A stretch of DNA of 64,000 nt from Halobacteriales archaeon QS_1_69_70 (GTDB lineage Archaea; Halobacteriota; Halobacteria; Halobacteriales; Haloarculaceae), in the NCBI GenBank assembly GCA_003021005.1, contig PXRI01000017.1:185542-249541 (forward strand). Reading direction: 5' to 3'. This document shows positions 10,718 to 28,736 of the stretch, one piece after another. The stretch's first letter is position 1; each line of letters starts with the position of its first letter. The position numbers were made by a program, and so were the translations under genes. The notes under the pieces are model-generated. The model was not told where the DNA came from, did no database searches, and was given only the letters and a program-made list of their open reading frames with translations.

Positions 10718-11229
10718 GGCGGGCCTTCGACGCGGGGATACTTCGGTGTGTATGTGTATGTGCCGACGGCGGGCGGCGAGTCGACGACGTCGCCCGCAGG
10801 GGGGCGGGCCGGGCAGCGTCAGTTGGCGACCGCGTCCATCTCGACTGCGGGACCCCGATTCGGGCGGGATGGCCCTATCGGACCGCGAGCGGCGTCCAGG
10901 CGACCAGTTGGAGGACGGCGACGAGACCCATCCCGACGACGGCGGGGTACCGGTGGATGACCGTTGATGGCAAAGTCCGCAGGACCAAAATCTCGACCTG
11001 AAGCCATTCGCGTATCGGGAGTGTATCGATAAGCAAATCATCACAACGAACTGCCGACCAGACAAGGGGATTCTAGTTGTACCCGTTATACCGTTCGTCC
11101 GCGGCTCCGAGCAGGTGCTTTTTTGCACGCAGGACGTTATGTCCGTTACTTACGTACCGCCGTAGGTGGGGGCGAACGAATGGCCGTTCTTATGGATCGG
11201 GTCGGGGCGTGGGGCACTACCGTAAATAC
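10718..11229. other. Gene-poor boundary between backbone and island
   Basis: About 500 bases without a convincing gene. A short minus-strand frame (10875-10973, TTG start) encodes a hydrophobic peptide containing AVVGMGLVAVLQLVAWTPL, which could be a tiny membrane protein or the end of a lost gene. From about 10980 the sequence becomes visibly richer in A+T, so the island edge probably lies between there and the insertion sequence at 11230. Confidence 0.45.
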
Positions 11230-11236
11230 GCACTGT

Positions 11237-11915: not shown

Positions 11916-11957
11916 AGACACACTCACTACCACCTGCTCACTTCTCAAACCCCCTTC

Positions 11958-11970
11958 AACTAGACAGTGC
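11958..11970. repeat. Right terminal inverted repeat of the IS
   Basis: AACTAGACAGTGC is the exact reverse complement of the left end at 11230-11242, giving a 13-bp perfect terminal repeat. Confidence 0.85.
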
Positions 11971-12036
11971 CACAAATCCAAATATGTTATTACACATTCA
12001 TAAAGTTAAACACTCTTGAGTGTTGTAATCGGACCA

Positions 12037-13059
12037 ATGTACTCGATATACCCAAGGGCACGTGAACGAATATATCATTACGTAGGATTCGTTCTTGCGC
12101 TCCATATCGGAGCCCACGCTACACATACCTTCACTCACCTAACAATACCTGTTACTTTACCGACACCGCTGACAGTTTTCACCATCTTCGTGGTCTTCAT
12201 TGCCCCAGTAGGAGGGTTCCTCCTTCTATTAAGAGGAGACAGTCTTTTCGGAGGAATTATCTTCGTCGCATCAATGGCAATCTCACTAGCGTTGGGTGGA
12301 ACCTTCCACTTCGTGTTGCAGAACCCAGATCACGTATCGTCGGTGCCGAATGGAGTCCTGGGATTCACCTTCGAGATGACCGCTGTAGCAGTCGCGTTAA
12401 TCGACTTAGTTGGTAGCATTCTCGGCGGACTGGTGATTTGGGCCCAGACATCGAACCTTCCGGTCTCATTACGACAATCAGGTCGAATCTCCGGTTTACC
12501 AAGTTCCGGGTTTCGACCACTCACCCGATTCACGTATTGGTTCTCGAAGCGAATATTCGGAGAGGTCCCCGAACCTGTGACCATCATGGCACACAATAAC
12601 CAGATATTGTGGGGAACAAGTGCGTTCGAGATGGCACTTGATCGAGCAGGGCACGTCGACGAGCGATTAAAGGAACTTACAGTCCTGAAGGCAGCTAAGG
12701 TAATCGGGTGTGACTTTTGTGTCGACATCGGAACATCCGAAGCTCAGGACTTGGGGATTCCCCATGAACAGCTGGCAGAACTCCACCGGTTCGAAGAGAG
12801 CGATGCGTTCAACGAACTGGAACGGCTAGTCCTTCGGTACGCGGTCGCGGTCTCTACGACACCTACTGACGTGCCCGACGGAATGTATGACGAATTGAGC
12901 ACCAATTTCGATGAAGCCGAGATGGTGGAACTCACTGCCGCTATCGCGTTCGAGAACTACCGTGCGCGGTTTAATCACGCATTCGAGATTAAATCTCAAG
13001 GGTTCTCCGAAGGCGGCCTTTGTCCACGTATGGAGGAGCCACCCACCGTCCAAGAGTAG
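12037..13059 (+). CDS. Membrane protein fused to an AhpD/carboxymuconolactone decarboxylase-like domain
   Basis: From ATG 12037 the product has 340 residues; a TTG at 12016 could add seven. The first 150 or so residues form about four membrane segments (VFTIFVVFIAPVGGFLLLL, FEMTAVAVALIDLVGSILGG). Residues about 170-335 match the CMD/AhpD fold, with MAHNNQILWGTSAFEMALDR, the core helix LKELTVLKAAKVIGCDFC and its Cys225-x-x-Cys228 pair, then IPHEQLAELHRF. Classical AhpD adds a His three residues after the second Cys; here the stretch is CVDIGTS, so the proton relay is altered. Alkylhydroperoxidases and decarboxylases share this fold. Anchoring such a domain to the membrane is unusual and would suit a lipid-soluble substrate. 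A hand count of 12061-12120 gives 29 G+C of 60. Confidence 0.85.
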   Translation: MYSIYPRARERIYHYVGFVLALHIGAHATHTFTHLTIPVTLPTPLTVFTIFVVFIAPVGGFLLLLRGDSLFGGIIFVASMAISLALGGTFHFVLQNPDHVSSVPNGVLGFTFEMTAVAVALIDLVGSILGGLVIWAQTSNLPVSLRQSGRISGLPSSGFRPLTRFTYWFSKRIFGEVPEPVTIMAHNNQILWGTSAFEMALDRAGHVDERLKELTVLKAAKVIGCDFCVDIGTSEAQDLGIPHEQLAELHRFEESDAFNELERLVLRYAVAVSTTPTDVPDGMYDELSTNFDEAEMVELTAAIAFENYRARFNHAFEIKSQGFSEGGLCPRMEEPPTVQE

Positions 13060-13122
13060 CTCTAACCAGGTTAACTGGTGGCCCTTCGTGAAATTGATTT
13101 ATGCATAATCCCTGGTTTTCCC

Positions 13123-14520
13123 TCACGAGGACGGTTGCACGTTCTGGTTCAAACTAAAGAGGTTGTCTGGGTCCCACTCTTCTTTCAGCTCGACGAGGCG
13201 TTCGTAGTTCTCGCCGTACGCGGCCGATATCCGTTCCTCTTCGTCCCGGTCCAGATAATTCGAGTAAACTGCTCCGGTCGCGTACGGAGACATTTCTTCG
13301 TGGAAGTTCCGTGTCCACGCGATCATCTCGTCGTCAGCGTTAGGATCGCCCCAGCCGCTGAAAACACCGAACGTATATGCCGCATTCCGGTGCGGATATG
13401 CGGTTTCTGTCTCGTCAACTTCATTGATAGCACCCCCCATGGGTTCAATAACGATTTGCGTGTACCGACCAGGGAGTGATTCTGTCCGCGAAGCGATCGT
13501 ATCAATCGCTCCCTCCGGCAGCGATTGCAGGTAATGGGACTTCCAGTAGTACCGTTCTCCCCTCGGTTGACCACCATCGAAGAACTGCTGGAGATCCGCG
13601 TATCTCATTGGGTGCACGGCAGCGAATATCGGGTCTCCGAAATCAGCAAATGGCTCGAATTCTGGCCGACCCTTATCTACTGGCCCGGCGTAGCAGGCAA
13701 ACAGTCCCACGACGATCTGACCGTGTAACACCTCGGGGAAGCGTGGTACTTCGGGTACGTGTGCGACAGTCGCGTAGCAAGCGACTTCGTTCGGAGCGTC
13801 GGCCATGAATTCCTTGTAGAAATAAAGCGCATCTTCCGCATCCTCAATGGGGTGGACGACTTGAGCGGTCAACACCTCGGGGCCGACTCCGTGGAGTTCG
13901 AAATTGAAGCATGTGACGATGCCCAAATTCCCACCACCACCCCGAAGTCCCCAGAATAGCCCTGGATTTTCAGCTTCGCTTGCGTGAACGAACTCACCGT
14001 CGGCCGTAACGACGTCTACACCAATCAGGTTGTCCGTGGAAAGCCCAAACTTTCTTGCGAGGTATCCGATACCTCCTCCAAGGGTCAAACCTGCGACACC
14101 GGTAGTCGATATGAATCCGCCAGTCGTAGCCAGGCCGAACGCCTGTGCCTCGTGATCAAAGTCAGCCCACTTCGCACCGGGGCCAACGCGGGCGGTCTCG
14201 GAACTCGGATCGACTCGAACACTATTCATAAGGGATAGGTCGATCAGGATACCGCCATCGCACGTAGACTTGCCCGCGACGTTGTGCCCACCGCCCTTGA
14301 TGGCGAGGAGGCGGTCGTTCTCCCGCGCGTAGTCCACAGCGGCAATTACATCAGCGGTTCCTGTGCATCGGACGATCGCAGCCGGAAACTTGTCGATCAT
14401 CCCATTCCACACGCGCCTCGATTCGTCGTACCCTTCGTCTCCCGGCTCTAGGACACCCCCGTTAATGTGGTGTTCAAGTCTGCCGCTTACGGGTTCTTCC
14501 ACACGGTCATCTGCAGTCAT
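13123..14520 (-). CDS. FAD-dependent oxidoreductase of the berberine bridge enzyme type
   Basis: The product is 465 residues from ATG 14520; a GTG immediately upstream at 14523 is also possible. The PCMH-type FAD domain is clear: KGGGHNVAGKSTCDGGILIDL, then GFISTTGVAGLTLGGGIGYL and LRGGGGNLGIVTCFNFEL. The BBE motif closes the protein (AAYGENYERLVELKEEWDP, NLFSLNQN). The His of GGGH is the usual 8-alpha FAD attachment point. The second anchor of bicovalent members (Cys in RxCxG) is replaced by RVGPGA, so FAD is likely bound once. Such enzymes oxidise alcohols, sugars or C-H bonds next to amines. Substrate unknown; neighbours suggest a role in tailoring a small molecule. TTAATAAT lies about 50 bases upstream. 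Confidence 0.9.
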   Translation of the reverse strand: MTADDRVEEPVSGRLEHHINGGVLEPGDEGYDESRRVWNGMIDKFPAAIVRCTGTADVIAAVDYARENDRLLAIKGGGHNVAGKSTCDGGILIDLSLMNSVRVDPSSETARVGPGAKWADFDHEAQAFGLATTGGFISTTGVAGLTLGGGIGYLARKFGLSTDNLIGVDVVTADGEFVHASEAENPGLFWGLRGGGGNLGIVTCFNFELHGVGPEVLTAQVVHPIEDAEDALYFYKEFMADAPNEVACYATVAHVPEVPRFPEVLHGQIVVGLFACYAGPVDKGRPEFEPFADFGDPIFAAVHPMRYADLQQFFDGGQPRGERYYWKSHYLQSLPEGAIDTIASRTESLPGRYTQIVIEPMGGAINEVDETETAYPHRNAAYTFGVFSGWGDPNADDEMIAWTRNFHEEMSPYATGAVYSNYLDRDEEERISAAYGENYERLVELKEEWDPDNLFSLNQNVQPSS

Positions 14521-14523
14521 CAC

Positions 14524-14835
14524 CTTCTACCCCGAATACTGCGGGCAAAAAACTTCCCCGAGGAAGAATTAATAATAGCGACGAGTGCTCCAATTATAAC
14601 CGGTATTTTATTATGGTACGGTTTGCCCGGTTGTCACTAAGAATATTGTCCTTTCTGGATACGACTAAGGGATCGAAATTCGTCGTACAGCAGATGCTGC
14701 CAACGTAGTCGTGAGACAAACTGCAATCCCGTCGATACATTCCATCCCAAAACCTGTTTCTCGATAGGCGCAGGCGACCGCAGCTTATAACCCCTTAGTA
14801 AAACCGGGTTAGTTGCCTCATTTACAGTTGGAAAA
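14524..14835. other. AT-rich divergent intergenic region
   Basis: Region between divergent genes, noticeably A+T rich (AGAATTAATAATAGCG near 14563). It likely holds promoters for both sides. No reading frame longer than a few dozen codons looks real and no hairpin stands out. Confidence 0.5.
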
Positions 14836-14843
14836 GATATAAG
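14836..14843 (+). promoter_or_regulatory. TATA box for the Tat-like/UbiA gene pair
   Basis: GATATAAG lies 28-35 bases before the ATG at 14871, giving a transcript with almost no leader. Confidence 0.65.
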
Positions 14844-14870
14844 TTACAGGCCCGAGGGGATCGAGTTACC

Positions 14871-15440
14871 ATGCAGCGCAGAAAGATACTCGAGATGAGT
14901 GCAGGGGTACTCGGTGGTAAAGCTATCGGAGTCGATGATGTCGACCTCCCAGACGCTTCCCAGGGGGAAACCCCGGACATGTCAAGTGGCCGTGAGTTCT
15001 CCCTCACCGCCGAAGGATCGGGAGACCTGGACATGATCGTGCCTGGGGATAAGGAGACGAATAGAGCTGTCTTGGTGAACCTCTACGGGAAAGTCGAAGG
15101 CTGGTTCGAAGGTGGTCTTGAAGGGCGGTTGCTAGGAGGCCTCGGCGAGACACCTATCCCGTTCTCCACCGAGATGAAGCTTAGTCGACCGGAGAAAACA
15201 GCCATGGCCCATACAAGTGAATACTACTGCGTCCTGGAAGGTGTGATTACCGAATGCTGCGGCCAGAGTTTCCATGCTCACGGTAATTTCCAATCGGTTA
15301 TCTCAACTGGGGAATTCAACGGAACCCACATCAAAGGGGAAGTCCACACTGACACAGACATCGGTTGGCCGATGAAAGCAAGTATCAAGGGCGTGCAACT
15401 GCCCGGCGAATCCCCTGCAGCTACTCACGTAGAAACGTAG
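14871..15440 (+). CDS. Unknown protein with Tat-like N-terminus, paired with UbiA
   Basis: The 189-residue product starts MQRRKILEMSAGVLGGKAIG, resembling a short twin-arginine signal with a weak hydrophobic part, so export is uncertain. The rest is soluble and beta-rich, with a Gly-rich stretch (WFEGGLEGRLLGGLGETPIP) and the cysteines CVLEGVITECCGQSFHAHGN. The CC pair followed by two histidines could bind a metal. I recognise no family. It ends six bases before the prenyltransferase gene, so the two are very likely co-transcribed and may act on the same lipid-soluble compound; that link is inferred from position. Confidence 0.75.
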   Translation: MQRRKILEMSAGVLGGKAIGVDDVDLPDASQGETPDMSSGREFSLTAEGSGDLDMIVPGDKETNRAVLVNLYGKVEGWFEGGLEGRLLGGLGETPIPFSTEMKLSRPEKTAMAHTSEYYCVLEGVITECCGQSFHAHGNFQSVISTGEFNGTHIKGEVHTDTDIGWPMKASIKGVQLPGESPAATHVET

Positions 15441-15446
15441 GACCTT

Positions 15447-16382
15447 ATGCCCTCAAGAGTATTTTCTACTATAGGTAATAGTGGTAACATCATCCGAGGG
15501 CTGTGGCAGCTGTTTCGCATCAAACCGACGGTATCCTGGGGGTTCTCGTCGTTCGCTCTGGGTGTGGGGGTGGCCGTGGCCAGAGCGGGCACCGACGTGA
15601 ATCTGCTTGACGGGCTACTGATGTTCACCCTCGTGGGATTATCATTGGGCATCGCCAGTACCGGACTGAACGACGCCTACGACTGGATCACAGGGACCGA
15701 CAAGATGAGCATCGCCAAAGGGACCGGAGGTAGCCGCGTCATCCCTGAGGGGAAGATGTCGCTCAAGCAGGTCATCCTCACGGCGGTATTTTCCCTGGTC
15801 GCTATGTTAGCCATCGGGGCACACCTCGTCCTGCAGCAAGGGCGACCGATGCTCCTTGTCGTCGCTGTGGGCATACTCGCTCCCGTAGCGTATTCGGTCC
15901 CCCCGTTGAAGATGGGCTATCGGCCTTTTAACGAGCTCGTCGTCGGAGTTCCAGCTCTAATCTGTGTCGTAGTCGGGGCTGACGTGGCATTAACCGGGGA
16001 TTGGTCATGGCTCGCCGTCGGTCTCGGATTCGTCCACGCGATGTTCGGCATCTCTTGGTTCATCGTGTCACGGGTCCCGGATTACGAACCGGACAAGCAG
16101 GCCGGAAAGATTACGTCCGTCGTCTACTTGGGCCGTGACAACGCATCGCTGTTGTCTGGGATTTATGCGAGCATCGCCATCACGCCGGTACCATTCCTCG
16201 CGGTGGAGTTCACGCCGGCGATTGTCGTTTCGGTCGTCGCTTGGTTCGCCTTGGTCCTGGGGGTTTTCAAGCTGGAGCCCTACAATCCCGAACACGCATC
16301 GCGACTGCGGCTGCGGAATATGCACATCACCACGGCCCACGGCTTTGGTATGAGTATTCTACTCCCGTTGATGGGCGTGTGA
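15447..16382 (+). CDS. UbiA-family prenyltransferase
   Basis: The 311-residue integral membrane protein has about nine hydrophobic segments. The first Asp-rich motif is GLNDAYDWITGTDK (NDxxD...D) near residue 75 and the second is VPDYEPDKQAGKIT near 210. Both bind the magnesium-diphosphate of a prenyl donor. Family members attach prenyl chains to aromatic acceptors (menaquinone, ubiquinone, heme) or make lipids such as digeranylgeranylglyceryl phosphate. A separate UbiA homologue occurs at 32033-32929 in the backbone; this island copy sits among flavin oxidases and anthranilate genes, which favours an unusual aromatic acceptor. That acceptor is inferred. Confidence 0.9.
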   Translation: MPSRVFSTIGNSGNIIRGLWQLFRIKPTVSWGFSSFALGVGVAVARAGTDVNLLDGLLMFTLVGLSLGIASTGLNDAYDWITGTDKMSIAKGTGGSRVIPEGKMSLKQVILTAVFSLVAMLAIGAHLVLQQGRPMLLVVAVGILAPVAYSVPPLKMGYRPFNELVVGVPALICVVVGADVALTGDWSWLAVGLGFVHAMFGISWFIVSRVPDYEPDKQAGKITSVVYLGRDNASLLSGIYASIAITPVPFLAVEFTPAIVVSVVAWFALVLGVFKLEPYNPEHASRLRLRNMHITTAHGFGMSILLPLMGV

Positions 16383-16499
16383 CCCTACCTCCATCCGAAC
16401 CCATACCGCAACCGCCCGGTCACGTTCACTCCGGTCCGGTTCAATGAAATCCGGGCTCGAACGAGACTTGGTGGGGGGTGGTTTGCGTTGCTCCGAAGC

Positions 16500-18017
16500 T
16501 CAAAATGGAACCCACTTCCGGACCCGAGAGGTGCGGTCCGGATCCAACACGTCACCGATCACTTTCTCCGCGCATATCTTCCCGCTCAGCAAGCACGGGG
16601 CGACCCCGATTCCGGGGTTCGTGTTCGCGCCGACAAAGTACATCCCCGGAAGTTCCTTTGACCTATGCGGCGGACGAAACGGTCCACTTTGAGTGAGTGC
16701 CTGTGCGAGACCGTAGGCTGAACCGCGTGTACTATTGTACCGTTCGGCAAATTCGGAGATCGAGAAGTGTTCCTCTACGACAATCCTGTCCCGTACATCG
16801 CACCCGGCACGGGAATCCAGGGTCGAGAGCAAGGTGTCCCGGAACTCAGCTCGATTCGAGGAACTATCGACGACCTCGGTACTCACCGTACTCATCAGAT
16901 AAAGTGCGCTGTGCCCCTCGGGGGCGACCGAATCGTCGGTTATTGAAGGAGCGTTTACGTACACGATCGGATCGTCGGGCCAGATGGAATCCTGGCTCGG
17001 CCCGCACGAGCCTTTGGAATCGGGCGGTAACAGCCACGAATGGTGGCGCAAATCACCAAGATCGCCCTCCACGCCGAGATAGACGACGAACATCGATGGC
17101 GTGTACTCGCACTCCCGCCAGAAACTTCTGGAGAACCCTCGCTGGTCCTCCGAGAGAAGTTCCGACTCGGTGTATTCGTAGTCGGCGTTGCTGACGACGA
17201 TGTCCGTTGTGTGGTCACCGGCACTCGTTTGGACGGTGAACGAACCGGAATCGCTCCGTATAGCCCGGGCGGCCGTCCGGGTCTCGAACTTGACGCCGAG
17301 ATCTCTCGCCAATTCCACGACCCCCTCCACGACGCTAGCCATCCCGTCCTCGGGATAATAGATTCCTTCGTTGAAATCAAGGTGACTGAGGAAGGTATAG
17401 AAGCCCGGCAGCTTGGAGGGGGCACTTCCCACAAGAATAGTAGCATTGGTCAGAACCTGTTGCAGCTTCGGATGGGTAAAGTGGTCCTCGATGGTGTCTT
17501 TCAGGGTGCCTCGTAGCGGGGACAGGTGCCACAGTTGTCCGAGTAACCTCGGGTCGAGCCAATCTCTGATCCCCGCTCGGCTCGAGGAGATGACGTCCAT
17601 CATGATTTCGTAGTTCGTTGCTGCTTGGTCCAGGTAGCGATCGAGTTGTTCACCGGCACCGGGCTCGAGCCGCTCGAAGGTCTCCCTCTGGGAACTCCTG
17701 TCCGACGGGATATCGATTCGGTCACCGTCGTCAAAGAAGACCCGGTAGTTAGGATTGAGTCGTTCGATGCTGTAGAACTGGTCGGGAGACCTGTCAAAGT
17801 CGGCGAAGAAGTCTTCGAACACGTCAGGCGTCGTGTACGCCACGGGACCCATGTCGAATTTGAATCCCCGCTCCTTCAGTCTGTTTGCTCTTCCGCCGAG
17901 ATGGCAGTTCTTCTCAACGAGCGTAACGTCCGCACCTGCCTCCGCCAAATAGCAGGATGCCGATAGGCCGCCGAAACCACCCCCAATGACGACGACCGAC
18001 TTCTCAGAGACTGACAT
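16500..18017 (-). CDS. CrtI-type FAD oxidoreductase (phytoene desaturase family)
   Basis: From ATG 18017 the product has 505 residues. It opens with the dinucleotide-binding VVVIGGGFGGLSASCYLAEA and the acidic end VTLVEKN, then HLGGRANRLKERGFKFDMGP, a signature of the carotenoid desaturase/isomerase group. The C-terminal FAD contact is ELPGMYFVGANTNPGIGVA. CrtI relatives desaturate or isomerise polyene chains, but some oxidise other isoprenoids. It is convergent with the UbiA gene about 120 bases away, which suits an enzyme acting on the prenyl part of the same product. Alternatively it is an ordinary carotenoid enzyme that happens to lie here; no phytoene synthase gene is in the window. Confidence 0.88.
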   Translation of the reverse strand: MSVSEKSVVVIGGGFGGLSASCYLAEAGADVTLVEKNCHLGGRANRLKERGFKFDMGPVAYTTPDVFEDFFADFDRSPDQFYSIERLNPNYRVFFDDGDRIDIPSDRSSQRETFERLEPGAGEQLDRYLDQAATNYEIMMDVISSSRAGIRDWLDPRLLGQLWHLSPLRGTLKDTIEDHFTHPKLQQVLTNATILVGSAPSKLPGFYTFLSHLDFNEGIYYPEDGMASVVEGVVELARDLGVKFETRTAARAIRSDSGSFTVQTSAGDHTTDIVVSNADYEYTESELLSEDQRGFSRSFWRECEYTPSMFVVYLGVEGDLGDLRHHSWLLPPDSKGSCGPSQDSIWPDDPIVYVNAPSITDDSVAPEGHSALYLMSTVSTEVVDSSSNRAEFRDTLLSTLDSRAGCDVRDRIVVEEHFSISEFAERYNSTRGSAYGLAQALTQSGPFRPPHRSKELPGMYFVGANTNPGIGVAPCLLSGKICAEKVIGDVLDPDRTSRVRKWVPF

Positions 18018-18435
18018 GCCTACTCCCATTGGAAACCTCGTTGTAGTCAATCAATCGATTGCGGAAAATTATGGCGCGCTACCGTTACACGCGGCGGCGA
18101 CGGGCTGGCCCGGTACCTGAGTGGGAGAGGGAGGGCGGCCGATAATCGCCTATCACACCCACCTCCATCGGCCGAGGTACTACCGTCGTTGCAACGGACC
18201 ATAAGGTGACTTTTAGGACGGATCTATCTGCGCATTTCTCCAGTCCGTTCACAATGACCGTCCACTGGACGGGCGAGAGGACGGACCGCGTGCCACGGCG
18301 GTCAAACCGGGCCTTGTTGTCTCGGCCAGGAGTATAGAAATCGACGATATTCCGGCGTTAGCCGGCTATTTTTCCCACCGCCATTCTTAATACGTTCCAC
18401 TTTCGCTTTAGGAGATAAGACTGACCTGGTTCGAA
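18018..18435. other. Divergent intergenic region, no gene seen
   Basis: About 420 bases between the divergent CrtI-type and TrpD-like genes. On the plus side CTTAATACG (18386-18394) is a possible TATA box with a leader of roughly 15-20 bases; on the minus side ATAATTTTC near 18070 may serve the CrtI-type gene. No coding frame is convincing. Confidence 0.45.
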
Positions 18436-19415
18436 ATGATTGAGTATATCGATCGAGTTACGAGTGGCGAAGGCCTCTCTCGCACCACGGCCCGGGAAGC
18501 CGGCCGAGCGCTCTTCAACGACGCCACGGACACACAGCTCGGTGCTATGATAGCGGGGCTACGAGCGAAAGGAGAGACCGTGGATGAGGTCGTCGGGATC
18601 GCAGAAGGGCTGTCTGATTCGGCTCGCATGGTACGGCCTGACGTATTTCCGCTGGTCACGCTGGGAAACACGGGCTCCGGGGAACACGGTACTTTCGATG
18701 TCCTCACGAGCGCTGCATTGGTTGCCGTAGCGGCGGACGTCCAGATTACGAGACACCTCAGTGGGCCCGTTGGTTCTTACGCTGGTCGACGACCTAGACT
18801 CGGTGTACTGATCGATGAGGACCCCCGTGCAGTCAGCCGAGCCATCGAAGAAGTCGGCATCGGCCTCGCACCGATGTCCGCGTTTCATACCGGAATGGAA
18901 GCCTACGATCGACTCTGTGCGGAGGTCGGCCTGCGGACCATCTTCGACATCCTCGGTCCGCTGATCAACCCGACCCGGGCGGACGCACAGCTCGTGGGGG
19001 TCGCGGCTCCCGAGTTGGTCGAAGTCGTCGCTCATTCACTCAAGATGACGGGAGCCGATCGGGCGCTCGTCGTCCACGGTGATGGTCTGGACCAGGTCGC
19101 GGTCCACGGTCCGACGGTCGTCGCAGAGGTCAATGGAGGCGACGTCCATCAGTACTCGCTACGACCTTCGGACATCGGTCTCGAACACCACGATGCCCAC
19201 GACATCGCCACCACCGCTGATGGGTGGAACATGAACGCAGTCCGTTCGGTCGTCACCGGTCGCGAGGGCGAAGCCAAGCAGGAGGCAGTCCTCGCGAACG
19301 CGGGCGCAATCGTGTATCTCGCCGGGGCCGCCGACACCCTGTGTTCGGGTGTCGAACAAGCGCGTACGACAATCGAATCCGGAAGACTGACCGGATCCTT
19401 GAACTCTTCGCATGA
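18436..19415 (+). pseudogene. Anthranilate phosphoribosyltransferase-like gene, frameshifted at the end
   Basis: The fold is that of TrpD, which adds phosphoribosyl to anthranilate. Conserved blocks include IEEVGIGLAPMSAFH, LRTIFDILGPLINPTRADAQ, RALVVHGDGLDQ and a C-terminal AVLANAGAIVYLAGAAD. Key PRPP-site motifs have changed: GTGGDG reads GNTGSGEHGT, NIST reads DVLTS, and KHGNRSVSS reads RHLSGPVGS. Near 19380 the original frame appears to continue one base out, giving KTDRILELFA and a stop at 19415 that overlaps an ATGA. Read literally the frame instead runs to 19695, adding some 90 unrelated residues. It may be a degenerate gene or a protein with a new role; I call it broken with moderate confidence. 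Confidence 0.65.
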
Positions 19416-19843
19416 ACGACGAATCTCACAGCGACACCGTCGGGACCCGGCATCCGAGGAACCCGGGCACGTTTTCATCTCCCACGAACCGGGTGGCATG
19501 ATTGGCGACAACAGTTCCGCGCAAGGAAGAGATACCTCCGCTCAAGCGGTATCCGGCTCGGGTTTGCAAGGAAGGTTACGACCACCGTCCGTTCCCGTCG
19601 GCGACCGAGGGGAATGTACTCCCCAGATTGCGGACGGACCAGCGAGGACATCACGGACAGCCCAGGACGAGAAACCGTCGTGGCGGCCATCCTGACGATG
19701 GTATCTAGAAGTTGGGGACAGATTCAAGCCCGACGTGCTGGGTGGATGGCTACCGCCAAATTACGTCTCCAGGTCACTCAATTGGGACATAGTTGTGGAC
19801 TTGCAACAGACTGCACCCGTCGGTATCCGGTGAGGCGAAACGA
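19416..19843 (+). other. Remnant region between trpD-like and trpE
   Basis: In haloarchaeal trp operons a trpF gene often sits here. The ATG at 19411 overlapping the restored trpD stop suggests a gene once followed, but its frame ends after about 30 codons and the remaining frames are arginine-rich without TrpF or TrpC motifs. I see no intact gene. Confidence 0.4.
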
Positions 19844-21505
19844 ATGCCAGCAAGCCACCTGTCTGTAGACCGGCGAACTTTCGCGGAATGGGCGGACGAG
19901 GCCCCTGTCGTGGTATACGTGACGGCCGAACTCCCGTACGGGGATCCACTCGGTGGGTATGCGGCCGTGACAGGACGGCGCGAGGGCCGGGGGCAGACCG
20001 ACGACGACAGAGACGCCGACGGCCGGAGCTTGGCTTACTCTTTCCTCTTTGAGCGGGCAGACAAGGTGGCGTCCTCTGATCCGACCGGCGCGCTGACGAC
20101 TGGAACGACGGCCGAGTCGCCCGTACGCTACTCTGCCGTGGGGTACGAGCCCCCCATCGTCATCTCCGCCCGTCCTGGGGACGACCGGGTCTCGGTACTC
20201 GATGACAGGTATCGGGGACTAATCGACATCGGTGGCGGGGATGTAGTCGACAGACTCAGGTCGGCGTTCCCGGATGTGGCTTCGAGAGGGTTCCCCCGCC
20301 GGAGTGGTCGGCACTTCGCGGGAGGTCTCGTCGGCTTCCTGTCGTACGACGCCGTGTACGACCTCTTCCTTCACCAAGTCGGCGTCAACCGTCCTCGCTC
20401 CAAGTTTCCGGATGCGGAGTTCGTCTTGAGCACTAAGAACTTAGTGTACGACCACGTCGCTGAGCGGACGAAGCTGGTGTTCACCCCCGTCGTCAGCCAG
20501 GATGACGACCCGCAGGCGGTGTACGACGCTCTTCTCGCTGAGGCGCGACGGATCCGAGAAATCATCGACCGTCCGAATCGAATCGACGGCTCGGGATTCC
20601 GGCAGGTTGGTCAGAACGCCGACCGGGGCGAGGATTTTCGAGCCACTGTCAGACGAACGAAAGAGTACGTCAGGGAAGGCGACATCTATCAAGGCGTCAT
20701 CTCCAGAAGACGGCAGTTGTACGGCGATATCGACACGCTCCAGCTGTATGCAACGCTACGTGAGCTCAACCCCTCACCGTATATGTACCTCTGTGGGTTC
20801 GACGACACGACGCTCGTCGGTGCGAGTCCGGAGACGCTCGTCGAGGTCAGAGACCGGAAGATAGTTACAAACCCGATTGCCGGCACCTGCAAACGGGGTG
20901 ATGGCCCGGTCGACGATCGGCGTCAAGCAGGACGGATGCTGGTAGATGGGAAGGAGCGAGCTGAGCACGCGATGCTGGTCGACCTCGCGCGCAACGACGT
21001 CCGGCGGGTGAGCGAGGCCGGCTCCGTAGGCGTGGAGGAGTTCATGAATGTCATCAAGTACTCGAACGTCCAGCACATTGAGTCGACAGTGGTAGGGCGG
21101 CTGGCCGCAGGGGCGGACGCCTTCGACGCGACGCGAGCGACGTTCCCAGCCGGGACGCTCTCCGGCGCACCGAAGTTACGCGCCATGGAAATCATCGACG
21201 AGCTCGAGAAGACGCCACGGGGGCCTTACGGCGGTGGCATCGGTTACTACTCTTGGACGGGCGAGGCCGACCTCGCAATTATCATCCGGACCGCCACCGT
21301 CACCCATGACGTGGCCGTACCCAATGTGGTTACGGACGGCAGTGTTTCTGACGAAGTCGACCGTGTGACGATTCGGGCAGGCGCGGGAATCGTGGCCGAC
21401 TCGGACCTGTCAGCCGAGTTCGAGGAGACCCAGCAGAAGATGGACAGTGTCTGCACCGCCCTCGAACGGATCCGGAAGGACCGGGCCGGAGAGATCGTAG
21501 AGTGA
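19844..21505 (+). CDS. trpE: Anthranilate synthase component I
   Basis: From ATG 19844 the product has 553 residues. The chorismate-binding domain is complete: DIYQGVISRRR, NPSPYMYLCGF, NPIAGTCKRGDG, ERAEHAMLVDLARNDVRRV, FPAGTLSGAPKLRAMEIIDE, and YGGGIGYYSW. With TrpG it makes anthranilate from chorismate and glutamine. The N-terminal element that normally reads LLES and senses tryptophan is FLFER here, so feedback control may be weak. It overlaps trpG by four bases (GTGA). In context the anthranilate probably feeds the neighbouring CoA ligase rather than only tryptophan synthesis; that is inference. ADIC synthase (PhzE-like) is an alternative activity. Confidence 0.9.
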   Translation: MPASHLSVDRRTFAEWADEAPVVVYVTAELPYGDPLGGYAAVTGRREGRGQTDDDRDADGRSLAYSFLFERADKVASSDPTGALTTGTTAESPVRYSAVGYEPPIVISARPGDDRVSVLDDRYRGLIDIGGGDVVDRLRSAFPDVASRGFPRRSGRHFAGGLVGFLSYDAVYDLFLHQVGVNRPRSKFPDAEFVLSTKNLVYDHVAERTKLVFTPVVSQDDDPQAVYDALLAEARRIREIIDRPNRIDGSGFRQVGQNADRGEDFRATVRRTKEYVREGDIYQGVISRRRQLYGDIDTLQLYATLRELNPSPYMYLCGFDDTTLVGASPETLVEVRDRKIVTNPIAGTCKRGDGPVDDRRQAGRMLVDGKERAEHAMLVDLARNDVRRVSEAGSVGVEEFMNVIKYSNVQHIESTVVGRLAAGADAFDATRATFPAGTLSGAPKLRAMEIIDELEKTPRGPYGGGIGYYSWTGEADLAIIIRTATVTHDVAVPNVVTDGSVSDEVDRVTIRAGAGIVADSDLSAEFEETQQKMDSVCTALERIRKDRAGEIVE

Positions 21506-22101
21506 CCCCCGAACGACTGACGCGGGTGTTGTTCGTCGACAACTTCGATTCATTCACCTACAATCTGGTCGAGTACGTGAGCCGGCACCCCGGCACCGAG
21601 ACGTCCGTTATGAGGAACACGGTGAATCTAGAGTCGATTCGATTGTTCGACCCAGATGGAATCATCATCAGTCCGGGACCTGGACGGCCCGAGCACGAAC
21701 GAGATGTCGGAGTCACGACCGACATCCTTCGCACCGTCAGCCACGAGGTGCCGACGTTGGGCGTGTGCTTGGGCCTCGAGGCGGCCGTCCACGTGTACGG
21801 CGGCAAGATCGGCTATGCGCCAGAGCCCGTCCACGGCAAGGCGTTCACCATCCAGCACGACGATCGCGGTGTCTTCCGAGGACTCGACCAGGGCTTCCGC
21901 GCCGGGCGGTACCACTCGTTGATCGCCACCGATGTCCCGTCCTGCTTTACGGTCAGCGCGACCACCGAGGACTGTGGCGAGGTACTGGTGATGGGGGTTC
22001 GCCACGAAAGCCACCCGATCAAATGTGTCCAGTTCCACCCTGAGTCCGTCCTTACTGGAGTCGGTGAGGAGGTGATCGAGAACTTCCTCGCCGACCTCTG
22101 A
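21502..22101 (+). CDS. trpG: Anthranilate synthase glutamine amidotransferase subunit
   Basis: The 199-residue product starts at GTG 21502, inside the trpE stop. Class I amidotransferase marks are LFVDNFDSFTYNLVEYV, IIISPGPGRPE, the nucleophile Cys in LGVCLGLEAAV, and the catalytic His-Glu in VQFHPESVLTG. The usual CLGHQ following the nucleophile is CLGLE, losing the glutamine-contacting Gln; the triad itself is intact, so ammonia transfer should still work, perhaps with altered glutamine affinity. It supplies ammonia to the TrpE partner. Confidence 0.92.
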   Translation: MTPERLTRVLFVDNFDSFTYNLVEYVSRHPGTETSVMRNTVNLESIRLFDPDGIIISPGPGRPEHERDVGVTTDILRTVSHEVPTLGVCLGLEAAVHVYGGKIGYAPEPVHGKAFTIQHDDRGVFRGLDQGFRAGRYHSLIATDVPSCFTVSATTEDCGEVLVMGVRHESHPIKCVQFHPESVLTGVGEEVIENFLADL

Positions 22102-22294
22102 CTACCGACGCCGTTCCCCTCTCGCAGCAACGGCGAGCGACTGCAACTGCGGGCTGAGCTGGAGCGCTCGCTCAAGACAAAGGCGAACTGCGTCACGGCG
22201 GGAGATTATTGAGGGCACTAGTCGCGGACGCAGCACACTGTCCCGTCACGACGAGGCGTCTCCGATACGAATGGAGCCGTCCGGATGGGGTAAG

Positions 22295-23953
22295 TCAGGT
22301 GTCCTTCATCACCTGGCTCTCTTGGCGGCGCTCGCACTCTCTAAGTTCAGTCCGGCGGATCTTGCCGGTCTCAGTACGGGGGAGTTCGTTGACGAACTCG
22401 ACCGCGCGCGGGTACTTGAACGGAGCCAGGTTGTCTTTGACGTGGCCCTGGAGTTCCTCAATCAGCTCATCAGACCCTGTCCGGTCCCGTGAGAGGACGA
22501 CGAAGGCTTTGACGATCTGGTTCCGCTCCTCGTCGGGGCTCGCTACCACCGCGGCGTCAGAGACCTCCGGGTGCTTCTCGAGGGCCCCCTCAACTTCCGG
22601 ACCAGGGACGTTGTACCCAGCGGTTATGATGAGGTCATCCCGCCGGGACTTGTACTCGAACCGGCCGTCCTCCCGGTGGACGAAAATGTCACCCGGGTAG
22701 TTCCACCCGTTATGGACGGCCTCCGATTGCTCGTCTGGACGGTTCCAGTACCTGATTCCGGTGGGACCGCGGACGGCAAGTACCCCCGGTTCGCCTCGGG
22801 GGACCTCCTCGTGGGTGTCAGGGTCCACCACCTTACATTCGTAGCCTGGTACCTGCAGCCCCGTGGCGCTCGGGTCGAAATCGTCCGCGAGACGATGACT
22901 GATGAACACGTGGAGCATCTCGGTCGTCCCGAGACCATCGGTCGTTTCGACCCCTATTTCCTCTTTGAGTCGTTCATAGGTGTGTTCGGGAAGCGGCTCG
23001 CCCGCGCTGACGAGAAGCCGGAGCGAGGAGATGTCGTACTCGGCTGCGATGTCGTCGCTCTGTTTGAACATCTGATTGTAGGCCGTCGGAACTGTTCCCA
23101 TCACGGTGACCCCGTACTCCTCGATGGCTTCGAGTAGGTCGAGGGAATCGGCGTCTTCCAGCAAGGCGGTACTCGCGCCGAACCTGAGGGGGAAGGCAAC
23201 GAGGACGCCGTATCCGTAGGTGAACGCGATGGGCGGGTTACCGCTGAACACGTCCTCTGGCGTGGGTTCGAGGCAGTAACGCGCGTACCCGTCGCAGATA
23301 GCGAGCAACTCACGGTGGGTGTGGACGGTCCCCTTCGGACGACCGGTCGTACCGGAGGTATACGCCATCAGGGCCAGGTCATCGCGCGTGGTCTCATACA
23401 AGTCGAGGTCTGGACTCGCCTTTTCGAGGAGCATTCCGTACCTCTCGAAATCACCCGCCCGCTCCGTCTCACCTGCCACCACTACGTTCTCGAGGGTCCC
23501 GGCAGAACGGTTCGCCTCGACGACCTCTTGCAGGAGATCGCCGGCCACGACGGCCGTGTGAGCTTCCGCGTCCGACAGCATGAACTCGATCTCCTCCGCC
23601 CGGAGCAACTTCATCGACGGCAAGGGGATTGCCCCAATCTTCTGGATGGCGAGACAGGTGACGACGTACTCCGGCCGGTTCGGGAACCGAACGAAGACTC
23701 TGTCGCCGGGGGCGACATCCAGCGTCCGGAGGGCGTTCCCCAGTCGGTCGCTCCGCTCTTTCAGCTGGGCGAACGTGAGGGTACGGTCTCTTGAGTACAC
23801 CGCGACGTCGTCACCTCGCCCCCCCTCCACGTGGCGGTCAACCATCTCGACCGCCGCGTTTATTTCCCTCGGGTACTTCAGTTCGGGTAGCGCAAAGAAT
23901 CGATCGGGGGAATCTTTATCCGGTAGGAACTGCTGGAGTTCGGCCCTCTGCAT
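22295..23953 (-). CDS. Benzoate/2-aminobenzoate-type CoA ligase
   Basis: From ATG 23953 the product has 552 residues and is an AMP-forming acyl-CoA synthetase. The phosphate loop is LMAYTSGTTGRPKGTVHTH; the adenylate motif is ETTDGLGTTEMLHVFIS; the hinge is YKSRRDDLIITAGYNVPGPE; the catalytic Lys lies in ELPRTETGKIRR. The TEMLHVFIS stretch is typical of benzoate, 4-hydroxybenzoate and 2-aminobenzoate CoA ligases. Given anthranilate synthase 200 bases away and an anthraniloyl-CoA-type monooxygenase further on, anthranilate is the likely substrate, by inference. It begins four bases after a small secreted protein gene, so they form an operon. Confidence 0.9.
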   Translation of the reverse strand: MQRAELQQFLPDKDSPDRFFALPELKYPREINAAVEMVDRHVEGGRGDDVAVYSRDRTLTFAQLKERSDRLGNALRTLDVAPGDRVFVRFPNRPEYVVTCLAIQKIGAIPLPSMKLLRAEEIEFMLSDAEAHTAVVAGDLLQEVVEANRSAGTLENVVVAGETERAGDFERYGMLLEKASPDLDLYETTRDDLALMAYTSGTTGRPKGTVHTHRELLAICDGYARYCLEPTPEDVFSGNPPIAFTYGYGVLVAFPLRFGASTALLEDADSLDLLEAIEEYGVTVMGTVPTAYNQMFKQSDDIAAEYDISSLRLLVSAGEPLPEHTYERLKEEIGVETTDGLGTTEMLHVFISHRLADDFDPSATGLQVPGYECKVVDPDTHEEVPRGEPGVLAVRGPTGIRYWNRPDEQSEAVHNGWNYPGDIFVHREDGRFEYKSRRDDLIITAGYNVPGPEVEGALEKHPEVSDAAVVASPDEERNQIVKAFVVLSRDRTGSDELIEELQGHVKDNLAPFKYPRAVEFVNELPRTETGKIRRTELRECERRQESQVMKDT

Positions 23954-23957
23954 GGTA

Positions 23958-24464
23958 TCAGCCTTCGTACTCGCAGGGGTGACCGTTCTTGTCGTGCTTC
24001 GAGTCCTTGTTGACCGCAAACTCGGAGAGGCCCGGGTGCACGGACTGGTTGCCGCTCAACAGACCGTCGTATCCCTCGCTGAAGCAGAATTGAACCGAGG
24101 CGTGGCCCGAATCCGTGTGGGCCTCGAAGTAGTGATCTCCCCGCTGCCGATTATCTTCGCTGTCGCAAGGACTGGCGTGTCCGTCTGCGATGCCGTTGGC
24201 GAGCAGGACGAATCCGGTGGCAGCCTCGGCGTCGTTGAGGTAAGCGTCCGCGCCGTCGGTCCCGACCTTGACGCCGCCTTCACCCCCGAACTGACTAGTC
24301 TCTTGGTCGCCGTTCTCGTCGGTACAGCTCCCGGATGCTCCGACCTCCGGGTCAGCGAACGCCGTACCGGTCGCACTCATTAGCAATGCTGCCTTTAAAG
24401 CAACCGCCAGCAGTATCCTTCGTTCCCGCATCCAGTCTATTTCGGAAGGGTGGGGTAAATCCAT
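23958..24464 (-). CDS. Small secreted protein upstream of the CoA ligase
   Basis: The 168-residue product starts at ATG 24464, placed 21-28 bases after TATA-like CTAAAAAA (minus strand); a second ATG at 24431 would give 157 residues. The signal peptide core is ILLAVALKAALLMSATG with a likely cut after TAFA. The mature part is acidic with four cysteines (SCTDENGD, SPCDSED, VQFCFSEGYDG, HPCEYEG) that could form two disulfides. I recognise no family. Its four-base spacing to the ligase gene implies co-transcription. Confidence 0.75.
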   Translation of the reverse strand: MDLPHPSEIDWMRERRILLAVALKAALLMSATGTAFADPEVGASGSCTDENGDQETSQFGGEGGVKVGTDGADAYLNDAEAATGFVLLANGIADGHASPCDSEDNRQRGDHYFEAHTDSGHASVQFCFSEGYDGLLSGNQSVHPGLSEFAVNKDSKHDKNGHPCEYEG

Positions 24465-24484
24465 TCTGCCGTGTAATTCCCAGG

Positions 24485-24492
24485 TTTTTTAG
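24485..24492 (-). promoter_or_regulatory. TATA-like box for secreted protein-CoA ligase operon
   Basis: The minus strand reads CTAAAAAA, about 25 bases before the ATG at 24464, supporting that start and a leaderless transcript. Confidence 0.5.
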
Positions 24493-24675
24493 CCCGCGGA
24501 ACCGACGTACCTCTTGGCGTCCTTCGACCCGTTCACGCGCTACCCAGGCTCCACGGGTCCCTGTGGTCCGACTGGTAATTAATCGCGAGTGGGCGACTTG
24601 GCCGAGCGGTTTCAGAGTCGTTCGGATGCTCGTCACCGTTTATCAGCGCGTTACATGATTGTCACCGAACCCAAT

Positions 24676-24683
24676 CTTTATCA
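24676..24683 (+). promoter_or_regulatory. TATA-like box before the small membrane protein gene
   Basis: CTTTATCA lies about 40 bases before ATG 24719, which would leave a short leader of roughly a dozen bases. Confidence 0.45.
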
Positions 24684-24718
24684 TGTCCTTTCGTTACCTT
24701 CGTCACGAGTAACACCTC

Positions 24719-25079
24719 ATGAAGGAAAGAATTCGGTCTCTCGCGGACGACAAGCTCGTCAACAGTTACCTAATCCCCTGGGGGTCGTCTTACTGGTTCG
24801 CCGTCGTCATCCAACCGGACCTCGTGGGGAACTTTAGCCCCCTTAGTTTCCGCGGTGAGCCTGGCGGTACTCGGCGCTCTCATCCTCGGCAATCTGTTCG
24901 TCGACAGTAGCGTTCTCTGGGTGCTACTCGGCCTCTTCTCAACGTCGGGTATCATCTCGAGCTGGGTGGGTTACACCCAGTGGACAGTGCCCTACTCCAC
25001 TGGATTGGCGGCGGTGAGCATGGCCCTGGTGAACGCCCTCTCCGCCGTCGTGTTCTTCTTCAAAGCGCTTGACGAGTGA
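24719..25079 (+). pseudogene. Small membrane protein, apparently frameshifted
   Basis: The first part (ATG 24719) reads MKERIRSLADDKLVNSYLIP followed by a hydrophobic stretch YWFAVVIQPDLVGNF. Near 24850 the hydrophobic pattern jumps to another frame, SLAVLGALILGNLFVDSS, and runs to FFFKALDE at 25079. Joined, they give about 118 residues with three or four membrane segments. Alternatively the second part is a gene of its own from GTG 24855 (74 residues). No family recognised. Low-G+C island location. Confidence 0.6.
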
Positions 25080-25335
25080 GTTACTGTCAACCAGACCGAA
25101 AGCTAGCCAAGGGGTGACGGACACGATCCGCCGAGACTGTAGCATCCGACGCGGGTACCCCGGGGATGTCTGGCTCACGACGGGGGGAGCCGGCCGGTTG
25201 CGACGACGTTTCGAAGGGTCGTAACGTATGCAAATGCGTGGTGTGCTGACGGATATAGCCGGTTCTTTTTCAACAAAAATCAACGTCTTTATTCTATGAT
25301 TCTCTTCTTAAAGTGCGAAGATTATCGCGCAGTAA

Positions 25336-25343
25336 CTTTATAA
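25336..25343 (+). promoter_or_regulatory. TATA box for the MMP12-like gene
   Basis: CTTTATAA lies 26-33 bases before ATG 25369, the clearest TATA box in the island, in a locally A+T-rich stretch. Confidence 0.7.
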
Positions 25344-25368
25344 TCCCTTATTTCGATAGCGATTGCAA

Positions 25369-26580: not shown

Positions 26581-26586
26581 CCCCGC

Positions 26587-28728
26587 ATGAACCTGACGGT
26601 GATCGGAGGCGGCCCTGGCGGACTGTACGCGAGCGAACTCATCAAGAAGGAGTTTCCGGACTGGGAAGTAAGCGTCTACGAACGGAATCGCCGGGGCAAC
26701 ACATACGGCTGGGGCGTCGTGTTCTCAGACGCGACGTTGGGCACGCTGAAGGAAGCGGACGCCCCCTCACACAAGGCGATCACGGACGCCTTCGCGTCCT
26801 GGAACGACATTGATACGTACGTCGAGGGGCAGTGGTACCGATGTAGTGGCCACGGGTTCGCCAGTATACTGCGGGCGGACCTGCTGAGGGTCCTCCAAGA
26901 CCGATGTCGAGACGTGGGCGTCGAACTCCACCACGAACACCGGGTGGACGAGCCGGAGGCGTACCGGGAAGCTGCGGACGTGCTCGTCGGAGCGGACGGG
27001 TTGCGCAGTACGGTCCGCGACCGCTACCATGGGCGATTTCAACCCACTATCCAGTCCGGCGAGACGAAGTTCATCTGGCTCGGGACTGAGAAAGTTTTCG
27101 ACGCGTTCACCTTCATCTTCCGAGAGAATGCGCACGGTCTGTGGCGGGTTCACGCCTACCCCGGAACGAAGAGCACATTCATCGTCGAGTGTACCGAGAG
27201 CACCTGGGAGAACGCCGACATGGACAAACGCGACGAGGCTGACGCACTCGCGTACTTCGAGGACCTCTTCACCGACCACCTCGACGGCCACGGACTCGAG
27301 TCGAAGCTCTACACGTGGCGGCGCTTTCCGGAGGTGTCCTGCGACTCCTGGTCAACCGAGGACATCGTCTTGCTTGGGGACGCCGCCCACACCGTCCACT
27401 TTACCGTCGGCTCGGGGACGAAGCTGGCCATGGAAGACGCGATCGCGCTGACTGGTGCGTTCCGTGAACACGGCGACGATCTAGGGGCCGTCTTCGACGC
27501 CTTCGAAACCGCCCGCCGTCCACAGGTAGCCACGTTGCAGGATATGGGGAGGCGAAGTCAACGGTTCTTCGAAAACGTGGAACGGTACATTGAGCAGGAG
27601 CCGAGACAGTTCATCTTCAACCTGTTGACCCGGAGCGGTCGCGTGTCGTACGACGAGCTCAGGGTCCGGGACCCGACGTTCGTCGACAGCTACGACCGCT
27701 GGTTCGACCGGTTCGAGGGGGCATCGGACGGTACGCCGACCGTGGCCACCCCGCCGCTATTCAAGCCGTTGCGACTTGGTGACATCACCCTTCCTAACCG
27801 CGTCGTCAGCACCTGTAGGCCGAGAGAGACGTCTTCGGACGGCGTACCCGGTCGTGCGACCCTCGAAACGTACGTGGATGACGCAACGAGCGGTGTCGGA
27901 ATGGTGCTCACGCAACCTGTCGCCGTGACGGAGAACGGTCGAATCTCGAGAGACAACCCGGGGCTCTACGCGGACGCACAGCGAGACGCGTGGCTCCCCG
28001 CGGTCGAACGCATTCACGCCGAGACGGAGACGGCCGCTGGCCTTCACCTCGCTCACGCGGGGCGGCGGAAAGAGGGGCGATTCCATACCGACCGACCACC
28101 GTCATCGTCCGCCGACCTGTTGGAACGACTCGCTCCGTCTGCGATACCGTACTCAGCCGAACACCCGGTTCCGACGGCGATGGACGCGAGTGATCTCCAA
28201 GCAATCCGCCGAGCCTTTGTTGCCGCCACCGAACGCGCGGACGCCGCTGGGTTCGATTACCTCCAGCTACACGCTGGAGACGGCTACTTGCTCGGGCAGT
28301 TCCTCTCGCCGCTCGCGAACGTTCGGACCGACGAGTACGGGGGTCGCACGGACGCACGGTTGCGCTATCCTCTCGAGGTCGTCGACGCGGTAAGGGACGT
28401 CTGGCCCGACCACAAACCGCTGGGCGTCACCATGCAGGCCAAGGACTGCCACGCGGACGGCATTGGACTCACCGAGGCCGAATCGTTCGCCCTCGCGTTG
28501 GACGAGTGCGGCTGTGACCTCCTGGCACCCGTGATCGGCGGAACGCTTCCGCCGGAACGACAGCAGGCGGTCGAGGTCCAGCTCGTCGACGCTTGTGACA
28601 GGATTCGGAACGAGACGGGTGTGCCCACGCTCTCGACCGCGCAGCCCACCAGTTTCGACGCCATCAACACCCAGGTCGGAGCGGGACGGACGGACCTCTG
28701 CACCTTCTCACCGCCGGGTCTGGAGTAG
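26587..28728 (+). CDS. Anthraniloyl-CoA/salicylyl-CoA monooxygenase-type two-domain flavoprotein
   Basis: The 713-residue product joins two flavin domains. Residues 1-370 are an FAD monooxygenase: VIGGGPGGLYASELIKKEFP, then ADVLVGADGLRSTVRDRY and VLLGDAAHTVHFTVGSGTKLA. Residues about 395-710 are an old-yellow-enzyme-type FMN domain: FKPLRLGDITLPNRVVS, HLAHAGRRKEGRF, GQFLSPLANVRTDEYGGR. The same order is known in 2-aminobenzoyl-CoA monooxygenase/reductase and salicylyl-CoA 5-hydroxylase. In the reductase part the usual HxxHGYLL reads LHAGDGYLL, so its activity may differ. The protein stops at DLCTFSPPGLE, roughly 40 residues earlier than I would expect, exactly where the island meets a truncated pilus gene. 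Substrate anthraniloyl-CoA is inferred from neighbours. Confidence 0.85.
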   Translation: MNLTVIGGGPGGLYASELIKKEFPDWEVSVYERNRRGNTYGWGVVFSDATLGTLKEADAPSHKAITDAFASWNDIDTYVEGQWYRCSGHGFASILRADLLRVLQDRCRDVGVELHHEHRVDEPEAYREAADVLVGADGLRSTVRDRYHGRFQPTIQSGETKFIWLGTEKVFDAFTFIFRENAHGLWRVHAYPGTKSTFIVECTESTWENADMDKRDEADALAYFEDLFTDHLDGHGLESKLYTWRRFPEVSCDSWSTEDIVLLGDAAHTVHFTVGSGTKLAMEDAIALTGAFREHGDDLGAVFDAFETARRPQVATLQDMGRRSQRFFENVERYIEQEPRQFIFNLLTRSGRVSYDELRVRDPTFVDSYDRWFDRFEGASDGTPTVATPPLFKPLRLGDITLPNRVVSTCRPRETSSDGVPGRATLETYVDDATSGVGMVLTQPVAVTENGRISRDNPGLYADAQRDAWLPAVERIHAETETAAGLHLAHAGRRKEGRFHTDRPPSSSADLLERLAPSAIPYSAEHPVPTAMDASDLQAIRRAFVAATERADAAGFDYLQLHAGDGYLLGQFLSPLANVRTDEYGGRTDARLRYPLEVVDAVRDVWPDHKPLGVTMQAKDCHADGIGLTEAESFALALDECGCDLLAPVIGGTLPPERQQAVEVQLVDACDRIRNETGVPTLSTAQPTSFDAINTQVGAGRTDLCTFSPPGLE

Positions 28729-28736
28729 CGGAGTCA

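Follow-up and report, generated by a model that had tools for sequence, protein, structure and literature searches.

A second, diverged trpD-trpE-trpG operon in a haloarchaeal draft genome, with a TrpD homologue altered at substrate and metal residues and a CoA ligase and monooxygenase nearby

The window, that is, the whole stretch of DNA analysed here, comprises 64,000 nucleotides of Halobacteriales archaeon QS_1_69_70. The draft genome of this host has a size of 2.45 Mb in 44 contigs and is 82% complete, for which reason absences from it are weak evidence; every statement about the locus rests on this single assembly. GC content is 51-66% across positions 11000-29000, against about 70% around it; the borders fall at about 11 kb and 28.5 kb, and the stretch looks like an acquired island. 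It contains trp genes on the forward strand in the order trpD*-trpE*-trpG* (the asterisk marks the window copies) and lacks trpF. trpD* (18436..19390) encodes a TrpD homologue without the usual PRPP, anthranilate and metal residues. trpE* (19793..21505, counted from a TTG codon, though translation may begin at a more internal site) encodes anthranilate synthase component I (TIGR01820, E 1.5e-157, 525 bits against a cut-off of 512), and trpG* (21502..22101) component II (NF041322, E 1.3e-97, 325 bits against a cut-off of 320). The interval that holds trpF in canonical haloarchaeal operons corresponds to 19416..19792 (+). A TrpF profile run with hmmsearch against 19301-19900 found no remnant of trpF (the best hit, on the minus strand, spans 13 residues at E 0.17), nor did the same profile match anywhere in the window (best E 0.063). 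As the same genome carries a canonical trpD-trpF-trpE-trpG operon on contig C28, the window operon is a second copy. A haloarchaeal origin of the genome is inferred from the named relatives in a plasmid collection and in a contig scan with TrpE* (see below) and from the match of TrpG* to a haloarchaea-specific model. Elsewhere in the low-GC stretch, a gene for a UbiA-type prenyltransferase (15447-16382, +) adjoins one for a CrtI/CrtD-type carotenoid desaturase (16500-18050, -); we take the pair to be possibly bacterioruberin-type genes.

The open reading frame of trpD* (18436-19695, +) matches the anthranilate phosphoribosyltransferase model (TrpD, a class IV PRT; TIGR01245) over residues 6-322 (E 2.5e-69; 234 bits, with the cut-off at 199) and contains the Pfam domains Glycos_transf_3 and Glycos_trans_3N. 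The two-domain fold, the length and the place before trpE-trpG are those of TrpD, and identity to the haloarchaeal TrpDs listed is 43-48%. The reference alignment consisted of 29 canonical haloarchaeal TrpDs, all of them non-self loci fetched from the search of the order genomes described below; second copies of operons already counted (L032, L034, L035, L036) and the canonical copy of the host itself (L002) were left out. TrpD* keeps 88 of the 139 columns that are invariant among the 29 sequences. Its mean identity to them is 46%, while pairs of canonical TrpDs average 77%. A sequence-only reading of this locus had described the remainder of the protein as intact; given these identities the description was overstated.

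The same reading had noted that the PRPP motif equivalents are replaced, and the alignment to the canonical TrpDs bears this out. GTGGD reads NTGSG (residues 78-82, 18667..18681), NVST reads DVLT (residues 88-91, 18697..18708) and KHGN reads RHLS (residues 106-109, 18751..18762). That reading left two further losses unmentioned, and likewise the lack of trpF, the changes at the feedback site of TrpE* and the neighbouring genes for a CoA ligase and a monooxygenase. The first is that of the anthranilate-binding arginine (Arg164 of SsTrpD), here cysteine (R161C, 18916..18918). The second is that of the second metal ligand in the DE motif, here DQ (E220Q, 19090..19095). The roles of both residues follow PMC5537072, from which 13 TrpD positions tied to PRPP, anthranilate or metal were taken, the numbering of the paper having been transferred to the alignment by hand. 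Nine of the 13 are changed in TrpD*, against 42 of the 126 other invariant positions (Fisher p=0.013), and the resident canonical TrpD keeps all 13. Within the changed motifs T79, G80, H107 and D219 are retained; the replaced residues include D82 and E220, which belong to the metal sites, and most of the phosphate loop. On these grounds, transfer of phosphoribose to anthranilate by TrpD* is not to be expected.

TrpD* matches were obtained in 287 of 293 genomes of the order (own genome included), the closest non-self sequences among the matches listed being 44-48% identical, and all 29 aligned non-self loci from this search are canonical TrpDs. According to the sequence-only reading, a lack of homologues with the changed motifs would imply a simple pseudogene, and no such homologue was found among the 293 genomes. 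Likewise, in three family sets (146 genomes with the own genome included, 125 genomes and 28 genomes) only the window itself reaches E 1e-86; these sets overlap with the 293 genomes, and while the 146-genome set holds the positive, empty answers from sets without a positive are weak. Six peptide patterns taken from TrpD* and run over the genome contigs returned 63 stretches and no relative. Together these searches cover part of the haloarchaeal genomes. The plasmid collection gave 97 records for TrpD*, all below 60% identity, and the seven closest of the 20 listed are annotated trpD. For TrpE*, the scan of genome contigs returned eight relatives at 53-57% identity, and a search of 392 genomes gave TrpEs of 56-62% identity among the matches listed.

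Haloarchaea also contain a second TrpD-like family (L109-L112, L116, L117, L120), which resembles TrpD* in being homologous to TrpD and in having a changed KHGN region, with 25-29% identity. It differs in carrying HSGDRVPTQK, or a close variant, at the KHGN region and in having no GTGGD. It forms a family of its own, and membership of TrpD* in it was rejected because the motifs differ. Other TrpD paralogues (L104-L107) keep GTGGD and KHG. Partial or broken loci (L108, L113, L119, L121, L122) and loci without a tblastn return (L114, L115, L118) were left out of the paralogue alignment.

In the concatenated tree, 10 relatives of the genus and the resident operon form a clade with support of 100/100 that excludes the window copy, which sits on a long branch outside it and is otherwise unplaced. 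A recent duplication of the resident operon is rejected on this basis. The genus clade was not recovered in the tree of TrpG alone, and an earlier FastTree analysis gave a weak tie to the genus, placing TrpG beside the resident copy (support 0.42) and TrpD with members of the genus (0.73). Relative to the canonical set, the distance ratio is 3.4 for TrpD*, against 1.8 for TrpE* and 1.8 for TrpG*; the faster divergence of TrpD* is a result on the side of decay.

The structure of TrpD* was predicted with AlphaFold from an alignment of 8 sequences. The best model has the TrpD fold with a pLDDT of 73.8 and a pTM of 0.79; the other four models reached 53-57. A canonical TrpD modelled at equal alignment depth scored 79.1 and contains a helix at 118-124 that is missing from the TrpD* model. 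Confidence is low in TrpD* at residues 81-85, 109-127 and 147-153; since the control is also low at 79-85 and 109-117, the drops specific to TrpD* are limited to 118-127 and 147-153. The best 50 of 370 matches in a PDB fold search with the model are all TrpDs, as are all 25 PDB sequence matches. It had been suggested that TrpD* could act on a different substrate or serve as a sink-free decoy; nothing in these matches points to another substrate, and no supporting evidence was obtained for a decoy. A TrpD* active as transferase or phosphorylase towards another substrate would agree with the predicted fold and with the retention of His107 and Asp219, but the loss of the metal-site and phosphate-loop residues, the local drops in confidence with the missing helix, and the lack of any relative found to share a new motif make this very unlikely.

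The 3' end of trpD* is probably out of frame. Frame 0 stays open to 19695, and the +2 frame of 19391..19415 reads TDRILELFA followed by a stop, which resembles the canonical ends; GC by codon position is flat after 19391 (0.62/0.58/0.63). A profile alignment that allows for frameshifts, however, preferred the unshifted reading at all penalties from -12 to -5. The claim of the sequence-only reading that the C-terminal codons are out of frame is no more than plausible. In view of the same alignment we do not attribute the changed motifs to compensating frameshifts, although small paired indels may be present. Visual inspection suggests a likeness of the +1 frame near 18790 to canonical TrpD. In an 8-codon scan an off-frame stretch at 18878 scores 10.0, against a maximum of 8.2 in a reverse-strand null; a second, at 18588, scores 8.2.

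A real possibility, although we hold it for rather less than probable, is that trpD* is a pseudogene, left in a foreign or duplicated trp operon that lost trpF and in which trpE and trpG may follow trpD into decay. That the searches above found no homologue with the same motifs speaks for it, as do the probable frameshift at the 3' end with the flat codon GC beyond, the one off-frame stretch above the null maximum and a gap of three residues at a site whose off-frame translation looks like canonical TrpD. GC3 of trpD* is also low: across the first three blocks of 150 bases it runs at 0.56-0.64 and stays below GC1. TrpE* has likewise lost 31 of 229 invariant residues. Differences between trpD* and canonical trpD at the three codon positions are 0.39/0.32/0.60, compared with 0.15/0.12/0.44 within the canonical set; the rise at all three positions is in line with decay, is ambiguous, and does not by itself show constraint.

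Against a pseudogene stand the open frame and the pattern of replacements. No stop interrupts the frame of TrpD*, and a frameshift is visible, if at all, only once, at the very end. Four canonical trpD genes were evolved neutrally in simulations to an equal loss of invariant residues, with indels assumed to be 7% of substitutions; the averages per run were 2.3-3.3 for stops and about 10-11 for frameshifts. Between 7 and 27 of 200 runs per setting (8 settings) were without a stop, and in none of 200 was the number of frameshifts one or zero. TrpD* is changed at 32 of the 64 invariant positions in residues 63-170, compared with 19 of 75 in the rest of TrpD* (p=0.0045), the boundaries of this core having been picked after viewing the alignment, which makes the p-values optimistic. 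Replacements inside the core are neutral-like (mean BLOSUM -0.78 against -0.75 expected; 231 of 400 simulations); those outside are conservative (0.37 against -0.61 under neutrality), a value reached in 1 of 400 simulations. Residues 171-260 retain 26 of 31 invariant positions. For the gene taken as a whole, replacements as conservative as those of TrpD* arose in 14 of 300 neutral simulations. A neutral pattern along the entire gene, as expected of a simple pseudogene, was not observed, as judged from post hoc windows. Within the same limit set by the post hoc boundaries, the earlier view that the pattern exceeds plain random decay holds, the motif positions being hit harder and the non-core replacements conservative. 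We read TrpD* as a protein apparently retained for its fold, with its chemistry abandoned.

TrpE* keeps 198 of 229 invariant columns and TrpG* 84 of 90, from which the two are probably active as a synthase. Two changes lie in the tryptophan-feedback site of TrpE*. The motif LLES, present in all 75 other distinct TrpE sequences, reads LFER (20045..20056), and the aromatic residue after the serine of R-Y/F-S-F/Y, which is Phe or Tyr in 75 of 75 others, is alanine (RYSAV, 20135..20137). Replacement of Ser by Arg in the LLES motif makes the Brevibacterium enzyme resistant to feedback; an archaeal synthase lacking LLES, described by Tang et al. in 2001, is reportedly still inhibited by tryptophan. 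TrpE* keeps the equivalent of Ser67 of the Mycobacterium tuberculosis enzyme (the Ser of R-Y-S) and the stretch NPSPYM, which takes part in tryptophan binding. The Ser of LLES presumably corresponds to Ser40 of Serratia marcescens TrpE. According to PMC10464499, Ser40 binds tryptophan. For M. tuberculosis TrpE, PMC6437058 reports that F68I abolishes inhibition by tryptophan and that replacement of Ser67 by Ala raises the IC50 more than 100-fold. The Ala of RYSAV was paired by eye (R-x-S-F) with Phe68 of that enzyme, the spacing from LLES being longer in haloarchaea. The substitutions in TrpE* may relieve feedback; the archaeal synthase of Tang et al. and the retained Ser67 equivalent and NPSPYM count against it.

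Downstream of trpG* lie two aryl-CoA genes. On the opposite strand, 22295..24019 (-) encodes an aryl-CoA ligase of the benzoate / 2-aminobenzoate type (TIGR02262, E 1.5e-107, 360 bits, below the cut-off of 375), with benzoate-CoA ligase 2v7b as its best PDB match (281 bits) and anthranilate-CoA ligase 4wv3 as the second (271 bits). The second gene (26587..28728, +) encodes a fusion of an FAD monooxygenase and an OYE domain (FAD_binding_3 and Oxidored_FMN) of the salicylyl-CoA 5-hydroxylase / 2-aminobenzoyl-CoA monooxygenase type (NF006101, E 4.8e-225, 749 bits, below the cut-off of 1078). Since NF006101 is named for salicylyl-CoA 5-hydroxylase, the acyl group of the fusion enzyme is not fixed by the match; 2-aminobenzoyl-CoA monooxygenase/reductase belongs to the same family. 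The two genes are separated by 2.6 kb with two open reading frames (23958-24464 and 25363-26580). The latter, directly upstream of the monooxygenase, matches methanogenesis marker 12 (TIGR03281, E 1.6e-36, below cut-off), here in a haloarchaeon; its last approximately 70 codons extend past the end of that match, possibly in the wrong frame.

Of 292 other genomes searched, 14 contain a relative of the monooxygenase at E 1e-60 or below. In 12 of the 14 neighbourhoods (about 20 kb each, one of 15.6 kb) a match to the CoA ligase is present, 7 at 58-62% and 5 at 28-32% identity. Neighbouring genes were annotated for two of the 14 loci, L054 and L056. In L056 the ligase/monooxygenase pair is accompanied by indoleamine 2,3-dioxygenase (IDO), an alpha/beta hydrolase and an acyl-CoA dehydrogenase, which agrees with anthranilate breakdown; L054 encodes proteins of the enoyl-CoA hydratase type and of the acyl-CoA dehydrogenase type, neither of which reaches its curated cut-off. 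None of the 14 loci (L052-L065, about 20 kb each, E limit 1e-10) has trpD, trpE or trpG beside the pair, no second genome with trpD*-trpE*-trpG* next to a ligase and monooxygenase was found, and no paper on this arrangement was found in the open-licence literature. Kynureninase was not found in the own genome (82% complete), the same search being positive in 5 of 14 control genomes, two of them above cut-off. Anthranilate is therefore more likely to come from chorismate in this host, within the limit that the incompleteness of the genome sets. A search of the own genome for IDO was uninformative, since no control genome gave a match.

The neighbourhood of trp genes and ligase/monooxygenase pair could also be accidental, with unrelated segments brought together in one low-GC island; the pair may be no more than a catabolic cluster that happens to adjoin the operon. 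The opposite strand of the ligase, the distance to the monooxygenase with its two intervening frames, the lower GC of the entire 11-28 kb stretch relative to its flanks and the absence of trp genes from the 14 other loci would fit this; the anthranilate-CoA ligase as second-best PDB relative and the L056 cluster with its IDO, which is in keeping with an anthranilate role of the pair, stand against it, and we regard mere coincidence as less likely than not.

The explanation we favour, tentatively and at somewhat less than even chances, is that the window carries a second, strongly diverged anthranilate-synthase operon that has been diverted from tryptophan and contains a catalytically dead TrpD. 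TrpE* and TrpG*, whose sequences are well kept, would convert chorismate to anthranilate, and the substitutions at the tryptophan site would ease feedback. With trpF missing and the ligand residues of TrpD* lost, no phosphoribosyl-anthranilate should be made by this operon. The ligase and the monooxygenase/reductase, as homology and the cluster in another haloarchaeon suggest, may take anthranilate to 2-aminobenzoyl-CoA and onward. TrpD* itself would be dead, its fold having been under selection for much of its history, most simply as a non-catalytic partner of TrpE* and TrpG* or as a leftover that began to decay only recently. A more specific form of this idea, in which TrpD* is a pseudoenzyme that has become a subunit, structural or allosteric, of an anthranilate synthase insensitive to tryptophan and steers anthranilate from tryptophan to 2-aminobenzoyl-CoA, appears improbable at present.

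If the diverted-operon explanation is correct, an operon of primary metabolism has been detached stepwise from its end product, with the feedback site altered, the second enzyme disabled, the third gene lost and the intermediate passed to CoA chemistry. It would offer a testable case, in archaea, of an enzyme that is retained for its fold after losing its activity, and would suggest that haloarchaea have a so far unrecognised pathway starting from anthranilate. If it is wrong, the locus is a decaying extra trp operon of an ordinary kind.

Parts of such an arrangement are known from other systems. Feedback-released anthranilate synthases, such as an isoenzyme of Ruta graveolens that is said to serve alkaloid formation rather than tryptophan, share with TrpE* and TrpG* an altered tryptophan site and a proposed dedicated supply of anthranilate; the window operon differs in being archaeal and in containing a dead TrpD, and its feedback release is a prediction. 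The 2-aminobenzoyl-CoA pathway of aerobic anthranilate breakdown consists of a CoA ligase and a monooxygenase/reductase, and both enzyme types occur in the window within 5 kb, where the pair adjoins genes that form anthranilate instead of genes that degrade tryptophan. In eudicots, a TSB-like pseudoenzyme, i.e. a non-catalytic paralogue of the tryptophan synthase beta subunit, redirects the pathway by binding its partner, as shown experimentally (PMC12727527). That protein derives from a different enzyme, and the likeness of TrpD*, known from its sequence, is an analogy only.

Two observations concern trp genes outside the window. The resident TrpD (L032:3994-4956, -, contig C28) is missing about 26 residues of the N-terminal helical domain in frame, between FE and FARGM; the sequence nearest to it in the tree (G310) is 338 amino acids long. 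The gap may be either an assembly fault or a genuine deletion in the dimer-forming domain, and the region in question is present in TrpD*. In a relative from the genus (L137; G051, C1:978000-990500), a nearly identical second trpE and trpG lie about 13 kb from the first trp operon.
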